This document shows positions 18,329 through 52,016 of a stretch of DNA of 64,000 nucleotides, in pieces; positions within the stretch are counted from its first letter, which is position 1, and every line of letters begins with the position of its first letter. Under the pieces are notes generated by a model, which saw only the letters and a list, made by a program, of their open reading frames with translations, was not told the DNA's origin and made no database searches. The stretch covers positions 124,001-188,000 of the forward strand of contig JACRPN010000009.1 in NCBI GenBank assembly GCA_016223145.1, written 5' to 3'. This stretch comes from Armatimonadota bacterium (lineage in GTDB: Bacteria > Armatimonadota > Fimbriimonadia > Fimbriimonadales > Fimbriimonadaceae). The position numbers and the translations under genes were made by a program.

Positions 18329-18375
18329 AGGGCTGGAGAATACCTATCGTGCTAAGGGAGTTTCGCAGAAGGTGT

Positions 18376-18398
18376 CGCCCAGGCGTCCCGCCTGGGCG
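18376..18398 (-). terminator. hairpin after the subtilase gene
   Basis: CGCCCAGGCG (18376-18385) and CGCCTGGGCG (18389-18398) form a perfect 10-bp stem with a 3-nt loop, 57 bp past the subtilase stop. No T-run follows on the minus strand, so intrinsic termination is uncertain. Confidence 0.45.
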
Positions 18399-21983: not shown

Positions 21984-22050
21984 GGGTACAAGCTGGAGTT
22001 CGTCTCGCGCTGCGAGGAGTCCTGCTTGAGGATAAGGGGGCGAGGTCGGT

Positions 22051-22098
22051 GAGACGGTGAGACGGTGAGTGGGTGAGACGGTGAGTGGGAGAGCGGGT
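22051..22098. repeat. degenerate octamer tandem repeat (six units)
   Basis: The units are TGAGACGG, TGAGACGG, TGAGTGGG, TGAGACGG, TGAGTGGG and AGAGCGGG. It runs directly into the left inverted repeat around the DUF4870 gene. Confidence 0.85.
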
Positions 22099-22140
22099 GA
22101 CGAAATCTGACCTGTGGGGCAGACTCTCAGTCTGCCTTTA
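22074..22140. repeat. left copy of a ~67-bp inverted repeat around the DUF4870 gene
   Basis: This segment matches the reverse complement of 22608-22674 with about four mismatches. It consists of octamer repeats, an AATCTGACCTGTG link and the 19-bp palindrome GGCAGACTCTCAGTCTGCC (22119-22137; 8-bp arms, loop CTC). Confidence 0.85.
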
Positions 22141-22218
22141 GTGTGCGATGCAACCTGGAGCAGCTTAGCAACGTCCGACAAGTCGATGAGCCATTTGCCG
22201 ACGCCGCTCACGTCCCCA

Positions 22219-22620
22219 ATGGAAAGGACAATGGGCGCCCTCGTCCATCTTCTGGGGATCGTAGGCCCTATCTGGCTCCCCCTGCTCGCTTGGGCATTCG
22301 CCAAGCCGTTTTCGGCTTTCGTTTCGGCACATGCTTGGCGCGAATTGCGGGACGCCATGGTCTGGAAGGCGTTTCTGCTGCTCGTGATGGCGGTGTCGCT
22401 GTCCTTCTCAGTGGCCCGCATCGTCCACCACTTTCAGACAGGGTGGCAGGAGTTCAGTTGGGAGGAAGTCGCGACGAGGGCCGCCATCAGCCTGGCAGTC
22501 TTTCTGGTTCTTTGGACTTGGAACTTGGTGCAGGCGATCTTGGCGGCGCGAGCCGCTTGGATGGGCCGATGGCCAAAAGGGTCGGGCGTCGATCCGGCGC
22601 TGGCGCGAAAGGCAGACTGA
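22219..22620 (+). CDS. small DUF4870/Tic20-like membrane protein
   Basis: The product is 133 residues from the ATG at 22219; a GTG-started extension reaches back into the repeat and looks spurious. Three to four hydrophobic helices are present: VHLLGIVGPIWLPLLAWAF, AFLLLVMAVSLSFSVARIV and ISLAVFLVLWTWNLVQAILA. The pattern matches DUF4870/Tic20-like small membrane proteins, whose function is not settled. The last codons (RKAD) and stop come from the right-hand inverted repeat. The gene is bracketed by near-identical inverted repeats and lies between two minus-strand genes, suggesting a mobilised or captured single-gene unit. Confidence 0.6.
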   Translation: MERTMGALVHLLGIVGPIWLPLLAWAFAKPFSAFVSAHAWRELRDAMVWKAFLLLVMAVSLSFSVARIVHHFQTGWQEFSWEEVATRAAISLAVFLVLWTWNLVQAILAARAAWMGRWPKGSGVDPALARKAD

Positions 22621-22674
22621 GAATCTGCCCCACAGGTCAGATTCCGTCGCCCACTCTCCCACTCACCGTCTCAC
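22608..22674. repeat. right copy of the ~67-bp inverted repeat
   Basis: This is the inverted partner of 22074-22140. It contains a palindrome variant (22611-22629, one arm mismatch) and then octamer repeats. Confidence 0.85.
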
Positions 22675-22738
22675 CGACTCGCCGACTCCCCCACTCTCCC
22701 ACTCACCCACTCACCTACTCACCCTCTCACCCCTTCTC
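22636..22738. repeat. degenerate octamer tandem repeat (about twelve units)
   Basis: The period is 8 nt with units such as CCACTCTC, CCACTCAC, CGTCTCAC, CGACTCGC, CTACTCAC and CCTCTCAC. It ends 2 bp before the SRPBCC stop codon and overlaps the right inverted repeat. Confidence 0.85.
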
Positions 22739-22739
22739 C

Positions 22740-23189
22740 CTAGTCCCCGGCCTTCCACTCATCGAACCCAATCGGGCGGCCCTTTTCGAGGTAGTTCTTG
22801 AGGGAATCCAGTGCCCAGGACCAACCTTCTGTCAGATTCTCCACCTCCGACTCGTCAAAGAGGTCCGTGTGATGGATTTGGACTTCTGTCTCGTCGGCAG
22901 AAGGAGACTCAAACCGCACCTCGACCACGCTGCCGGGGTGGTGGATCTTCTGCTCCCAGGTGAATCGGATGGACTCCATCGGCTCGATATCGAGGAACGT
23001 GCCCGCGTCGTGGTCGCCGTTTTCGTATCGGCCGCCAACGTGGAAGTCCTGGCGGGTCCCCTCCGAAAACCATGCTGACATCTGGCTCGAATCGGCCCAC
23101 GCCTCCCAAACCCTCTCCAACGGACAACGAATCAAACCATGGACGAACACGCGGTGCTCCGAGCGGCTCATGCCTCCCGATTCGCTCAT
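22740..23189 (-). CDS. SRPBCC domain protein (AHSA1-like)
   Basis: The product is 149 residues from the ATG at 23189; a second ATG at 23171 is also possible. The open frame extends upstream but has no family similarity there. It shows the START/Bet v1-like pattern VFVHGLIRCPLERVWEAWAD, then FSEGTRQDFHVGGRYE and FTWEQKIHHPGSVVEVRFES, and ends with LDSLKNYLEKG. Such proteins bind hydrophobic ligands or act as Hsp90-activator-like folds; many are unassigned. It is divergent from the lipoprotein gene at 23279. Confidence 0.8.
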   Translation of the reverse strand: MSESGGMSRSEHRVFVHGLIRCPLERVWEAWADSSQMSAWFSEGTRQDFHVGGRYENGDHDAGTFLDIEPMESIRFTWEQKIHHPGSVVEVRFESPSADETEVQIHHTDLFDESEVENLTEGWSWALDSLKNYLEKGRPIGFDEWKAGD

Positions 23190-25852: not shown

Positions 25853-25938
25853 TCACGATGCACCGTCTCGCCGACTCACCGTATCCCGGTTTCTCCGTTT
25901 CTCCCACTCCCCGTCTCTCCCATTCACCGGCTCATCCC
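25853..25938. repeat. degenerate octamer tandem repeat (about ten units)
   Basis: The period is 8 nt, with units such as CTCGCCGA, CTCACCGT, TTCTCCGT, TTCTCCCA, CTCCCCGT and TTCACCGG. It is intergenic and ends just before the TATCCT box of the DinB gene. Confidence 0.8.
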
Positions 25939-39805: not shown

Positions 39806-39910
39806 GCAGCAAGCATAGCCGGAATCGGTTTGCAGTGCAAGGGGGCGCTGAAACGACTGGAGACGGAGAGTCGCGAAAAGGGTGAGTTGAACGTGTCCGG
39901 GTTCCCGTAG

Positions 39911-39929
39911 GGCAGACTCTCCGTCTGCC
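39911..39929. repeat. 19-bp palindrome copy (GGCAGAC/GTCTGCC)
   Basis: GGCAGACTCTCCGTCTGCC has 7-bp arms. It is preceded by CCGTA and followed by TTTCC, as in the copies at 22119, 51939 and 51990. It lies in the 254-bp gap between the Gfo and SUMF1 genes, which holds no other recognisable feature. Confidence 0.8.
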
Positions 39930-51914: not shown

Positions 51915-52016
51915 ACAAGGAAGCTCTCGGACCCGTGGGGCAGACTCTCAGTCTGCCTTCTCCGCACAAGGAAGTCCTCGGACCCGTGGGGCAGACTCTC
52001 AGTCTGCCTTGGCTGC
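51915..52016. repeat. 51-bp tandem duplication, each unit with the 19-bp palindrome
   Basis: Two units, 51915-51965 and 51966-52016, share ACAAGGAAG, CTCGGACCCGTG and the perfect palindrome GGCAGACTCTCAGTCTGCC (51939-51957 and 51990-52008). Confidence 0.87.

Follow-up and report, generated by a model that had tools for sequence, protein, structure and literature searches.

Inverted copies of a species-specific GTAG-superfamily REP element around a DUF4870-like gene in an Armatimonadota bacterium

The window analysed here is a stretch of 64,000 nucleotides from the genome of an Armatimonadota bacterium (Fimbriimonadaceae), a 3.87-Mb draft of 23 contigs that is 97% complete. At about 22 kb, the window contains a small gene standing between two inverted arms, with the following features:

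22045..22100, plus strand: left octamer array of GGTGAGNN units, an array type present at dozens of loci in the genome
22101..22113, plus strand: left linker to the REP tag, ending AATCTGACCT, common to the right arm only
22111..22138, plus strand: left REP CCTGTGGGGCAGACTCTCAGTCTGCCTT, a DNA hairpin of -8.3 kcal/mol
22186..22620, plus strand: bracketed DUF4870-like gene, 144 aa, with its stop codon within the right REP
22609..22636, minus strand: right REP CCTGTGGGGCAGATTCTCAGTCTGCCTT, with one C-to-T stem change and the GTGG tag outward
22634..22646, minus strand: right linker, a copy of the left linker
22647..22740, minus strand: right octamer array of about 11 units, between the convergent ends of the DUF4870-like (+) and AHSA1 (-) genes

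A repeat search of the window placed the arms at 22045-22139 and 22608-22702. They are inverted, 95 nt each and 87% complementary (12 mismatches across the pair), with 468 nt between them. A sequence-only reading of this DNA had described inverted copies of about 67 bp with about four mismatches, and this description holds with the left start shifted by one base: in the register 22073-22139/22608-22674, the four mismatches are at 22094, 22098, 22103 and 22124. The octamer repeats, 13-nt link and 19-nt hairpin that it saw were all recovered, each arm being composed of a purine-rich octamer array, a 13-nt linker and a tagged hairpin. The period-8 arrays were located by TRF at 22047-22085 and 22650-22732. 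Within the left REP, the GTGG tag occupies 22114-22117, the stem 22118-22125/22129-22136 and the loop 22126-22128. The tags of the two REPs point outward in a head-head arrangement, and the right REP, with its stem change, folds less well than the left one. In the right arm (22607-22643, minus strand), pairing between the linker AATCTG and the CAGATT of the altered stem can compete with the REP hairpin. The window contains exactly two occurrences of the 33-nt core AATCTGACCTGTGGGGCAGACTCTCAGTCTGCC, with zero expected from shuffles, and the linker AATCTGACCTGTGGGGCAGAC, with up to two mismatches allowed, has only two sites in the 3.87-Mb genome, both in the arm pair. Two arm components are not limited to this locus, as hairpin and octamer arrays are each dispersed genome-wide. 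Rfam returned nothing over the window but one tRNA, and an intrinsic terminator was rejected as a candidate at the locus.

The bracketed gene is predicted to encode a small membrane protein of 144 aa, with an alternative start at 22219. Its last codons come from the right repeat, as had been proposed (AAG GCA GAC TGA, 22609-22620). One small gene does lie between the arms, but its DUF4870 label is marginal, the Pfam match scoring 22.8-23.5 bits, below the curated cut-off of 25. Homologs share 23-45% identity with it and were matched in 18/61 genomes, its own counted. The gene has one copy in its own genome and is absent from both congeners.

The tagged hairpin of the arms belongs to a dispersed REP family. 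The element is 28 nt long, CCCGTRG-GGCAGACT-CTC-AGTCTGCC-TT, and 42 copies were assembled across the genome; the hairpin GGGGCAGACTNNNAGTCTGCC and its GTRG-tagged form account for about 40 copies over most contigs. Among the 42 copies, conservation spans positions -7 to +20 of the palindrome and is at background level beyond on both sides. Twenty-seven copies have the tag GTGG and eight have GTAG (together 35/42), with G at -1 in all 42 copies and G at -4 in 40 of them. The stem has 8 bp and the 3-nt CTC loop is fixed in orientation, and CT stands directly after the stem (3' T) in 29/42 copies. The single strand folds alone into a hairpin (-8.3 kcal/mol, z -3.6). Stem covariation did not exceed that of shuffles, the stem being too conserved and its changes sparse. 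Judged from ORF-based gene calls only, the copies are mainly extragenic and occur as singles and dimers, including eight pairs less than 600 bp apart, and at least five genes carry an in-frame copy. Three more copies lie in the window, at 39907-39929, 51935-51957 and 51986-52008 (+), the latter two forming a 51-bp tandem duplication that includes the 5' flank.

The GGCAGACT REP has zero copies in both congeners and is near zero across 60 relatives. Because both congeners are without any copy, its spread in this lineage is recent, the REP having been dispersed and inserted after the split from the two congeners. The exact tagged hairpin was also found as single copies in three unrelated MAGs (Anaerolineae, Planctomycetota and Verrucomicrobia), all with the loop TTT and not CTC, and these matches are uninformative about relatives because of that loop. 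Elements related to this REP may occur in several phyla. A search of the available literature on Armatimonadetes and REP elements found no report.

In published descriptions, GTAG-superfamily REPs carry a GTRG tag directly before a stem of 6-13 bp, with a GTGG-degenerated tag in some families; they occur as singles and as inverted or tandem dimers, including head-head ones; their termini give stop codons to neighbouring ORFs; in-frame copies lie within genes, including many DNA-repair genes; and many REPs are away from any RAYT, while REPtrons may be lost (PMC3733652, Di Nocera et al. 2013). The REP of Stenotrophomonas maltophilia has 23 nt, a perfect 8-bp stem and a 3-nt loop, and the group 3 TnpA-REP cuts CT next to the stem (PMC8266576). 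The GGCAGACT REP agrees with these elements in its GTRG tag 5' of an 8-bp stem, its 3-nt loop and its 23 nt. It also shares with the GTAG superfamily the dispersed singles, the tandem and inverted dimers, the in-frame copies (repair genes included), the stop-supplying termini and the presence of RAYTs in the genome. It differs in that its tag is mostly GTGG, as reported for O. terrae GTAG-20, in the lack of an adjacent cognate RAYT, in a dimer that spans 490 bp and a gene, and in the octamer arrays frequent nearby. The arms are thus two copies of a species-specific GTAG-superfamily REP rather than the termini of a private cassette. The GGCAGACT family is new as a sequence and known as a kind, and the locus is mostly ordinary.

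As judged from alignments with relatives, it is the SRAP gene rather than the 22-kb locus that shows the family to be mobile. This gene for an SOS response associated peptidase (PF02586; G000:C8:296132-297016) carries an inverted REP cluster in frame, made up of three REPs and a partial one. The cluster adds about 46 aa that are missing in 16/16 aligned relatives, both congeners included. In mfd (G000:C8:397577), a single REP lies in frame near the TRCF domain, where the protein has about 6-8 residues more than its counterparts in 18 relatives; the insertion falls within a loop of variable length, which makes mfd weaker evidence of mobility than SRAP. RibD_C, M28-peptidase and sialidase-like genes also contain in-frame REPs; the sialidase-like gene was identified by eye only. 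The usual coding frame of the REP reads RGADSQSA. SRAP and mfd are two DNA-repair genes with REPs, which echoes an unexplained bias towards repair genes in PMC3733652.

Genes of the RAYT type are present elsewhere in the genome, with 12 Y1_Tnp matches compared to four in each congener. Four of the five proteins tested match the NCBIfam model REP_Tyr_transpos (NF047646; E<=5e-18), two of them above the curated cut-off. The genome also carries dozens of copies of a sister REP family built in the same way, GTRG-CCCAGGCG-TCT-CGCCTGGG, which is absent from the two congeners. At C9:2795, a RAYT gene lies between inverted copies of GTAG-CCCAGGCG-TCT-CGCCTGGG with tags outward (39-nt arms, 92%, 748 nt between), and at C10:37844 another lies between copies of a different GTAG hairpin (31-nt inverted arms, 97%, 594 nt between). 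Further RAYT genes are located at C13:96151 and C3:61424, among others. There are thus two complete REPtrons, each with a different REP family (L117, 2348-3173, G000:C9; L118, 2521-3232, G000:C10). A copy of the sister REP, GTCGCCCAGGCGTCCCGCCTGGG, is located in the window at 18374-18396 (G000:C9:142374), between ABC transporter and subtilase genes. Both the GGCAGACT family and the sister family are apparently undescribed, and among the compared genomes they are private to one species. No GGCAGACT REP flanks a RAYT gene within 1.5 kb at any RAYT locus in the genome, the best matches near RAYTs being 16-18 of 27. The enzyme that would mobilise the GGCAGACT family is therefore inferred, and its cognate RAYT may have been lost or left unassembled. 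The sequence-only reading had called the bracketed structure non-autonomous or a repeat pair; this part stands, in that the ends are members of a dispersed REP family like those that RAYTs move in trans.

A second species-specific repeat is formed by the octamer arrays, which often adjoin REPs. The pattern of four GGTGAGNN units has 124 matches in the genome, compared to 24 for the reversed-pattern control. Degenerate 7-8-nt purine-rich arrays of the types GGTGAGNN, GGGACAAA and GGATGAA recur in this species, at 25861-25938 in the window and at dozens of loci. Arrays of 7-8-nt units lie within 143 nt of a REP on the 5' side in 18/41 cases and on the 3' side in 8/41, compared to 4.8% for random positions that were not confined to intergenic DNA, so that the association of REPs with arrays is suggestive. 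Known intergenic arrays of 7-8-nt units (such as the heptamer SSRs of Xanthomonas and Nostoc; PMC4692102) have similarly degenerate, G-rich units. Differing from those arrays, the GGTGAGNN unit is often 5' of REPs and is private to one species among the 37 genomes compared, with one poor match in 36 relatives.

The flanks of the REP copies bear on how the two arms came to be alike. The 23 nt upstream of the arm REPs are identical at 20 positions, the top value of all 861 REP pairs; a tandem pair reaches at most 18/23, and non-local pairs have a mean of 6.56 and a maximum of 16. The 3' flanks match at 7/23, which is at background level. Homology of the arms thus ends at the 3' boundary of the REP and extends far on its 5' side. 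Eight REP pairs have members less than 600 bp apart; some of these pairs are not independent of each other, and a gene stands between the members in just one of them. The eight have a 5' flank mean of 10.75/23 versus 6.56 for non-local pairs (p about 0.001 without the 22-kb pair), and a 3' flank mean of 6.25 versus a background of 6.24. Independent insertions would have only the 28-nt element in common, and with the 20/23 upstream match the duplicated unit is therefore probably array, linker and REP together. The long common linker and array thus point to a local inverted duplication.

We suggest that the GGCAGACT REP is a non-autonomous element that would be moved in trans, as a single strand, by an HUH transposase of the RAYT/TnpA-REP type. 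The enzyme would recognise the tagged hairpin and cut C|T beside it; this cut site is proposed because 29 of the 42 copies have CT directly after the stem. At the 22-kb locus, one REP would have landed beside an octamer array, and local copying would then have placed a second unit of octamer array, linker and REP in the opposite strand at a distance of about 490 bp, across the DUF4870-like gene. Either a RAYT or template switching at the hairpin could bring about such REP-anchored copying, and both fit the data. Against this account, no RAYT gene is flanked by this REP, the spacing of 490 bp exceeds the 20-100 bp usual for REP dimers, and local copying is deduced from the eight close pairs. 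The gene itself was probably bracketed by accident, the right REP simply supplying its stop codon. We consider this account as a whole, in which species-specific GTAG-superfamily REPs are moved in trans by a RAYT and copied locally around an ordinary gene, to be probable (about 0.77).

Alternatively, the outward-tagged REP pair could form a REPtron-like mobile cassette that a RAYT moves in one piece, with the DUF4870-like gene in the place of the RAYT gene. The layout and spacing do resemble the REP-bracketed RAYT genes of the same genome (748 and 594 nt between arms), the gene is sporadic among the 61 genomes, and no other two REP flanks match as closely as those of the arms. As in a REPtron, one small gene lies between outward-tagged REPs, but it encodes a DUF4870-like membrane protein and no transposase. 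In a REPIN, the two partners sit near one another, at about 100 bp, and the same unit is found repeatedly. The arm pair shares with the REPIN/BIME (PMC3116915) its two inverted REPs of one family with tags outward, but it is unique in the genome and its spacer of about 470 nt holds a gene. The sequence-only reading had likewise proposed a gene cassette and suggested looking for the same ends around other genes. This is not borne out: the REP end is seen 42 times and mostly alone, lone REPs without a gene being the rule, and no other pair among these 42 copies was found to bracket a gene. The gene is single-copy, with no second cassette found, and its composition is ordinary (GC 0.618; GC3 0.745 versus 0.76-0.85 in its neighbours). 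Plasmid searches gave no match, and none of its homologs in the 14 relatives examined has flanking inverted repeats. The congeners and about ten other genomes have DUF2961 orthologs, but with no neighbour in common with the locus. Because no relative shares the neighbourhood, occupied and empty sites cannot be compared there, and a target-site duplication would be unrecognisable because of the octamer arrays on both sides. The congeners are without the gene, yet synteny at the locus is not conserved, and a gene gain may have occurred. There is no evidence that the REP pair moves the gene, and we regard the mobile cassette as unlikely.

A function in RNA is a quite improbable explanation of the arms. 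In this case, the right REP would serve as a 3' hairpin that protects or ends the mRNA, and the left REP as a leader or a barrier between divergent promoters. The right REP overlaps the stop codon and stands between convergent gene ends, a usual REP position (PMC3733652), whereas the left REP is flanked by divergent genes, which is uncommon for a REP. The search for an intrinsic terminator-like site found none, and a conserved role cannot be demonstrated for a REP family private to one species. An assembly artefact, in which a repeat was falsely inverted or collapsed, is conceivable in a draft of 23 contigs with octamer arrays that are hard to assemble, but it deserves hardly any weight, as the arms differ at 12/95 positions, their array lengths differ, and the unique sequence between and outside them encodes coherent genes.

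The genome offers two REP families with clear signs of recent spread, from which the mobility and target choice of REPs could be read by comparing genomes. The 5' but not 3' flank that neighbouring copies have in common hints at the mode of REP copying. If a gene had indeed been moved by an inverted REP pair, this would be a possible route for gene shuffling by REPs and RAYTs. The most useful parts of these results are the recent, species-specific burst of REPs and the 5'-sided flank likeness of neighbouring copies.
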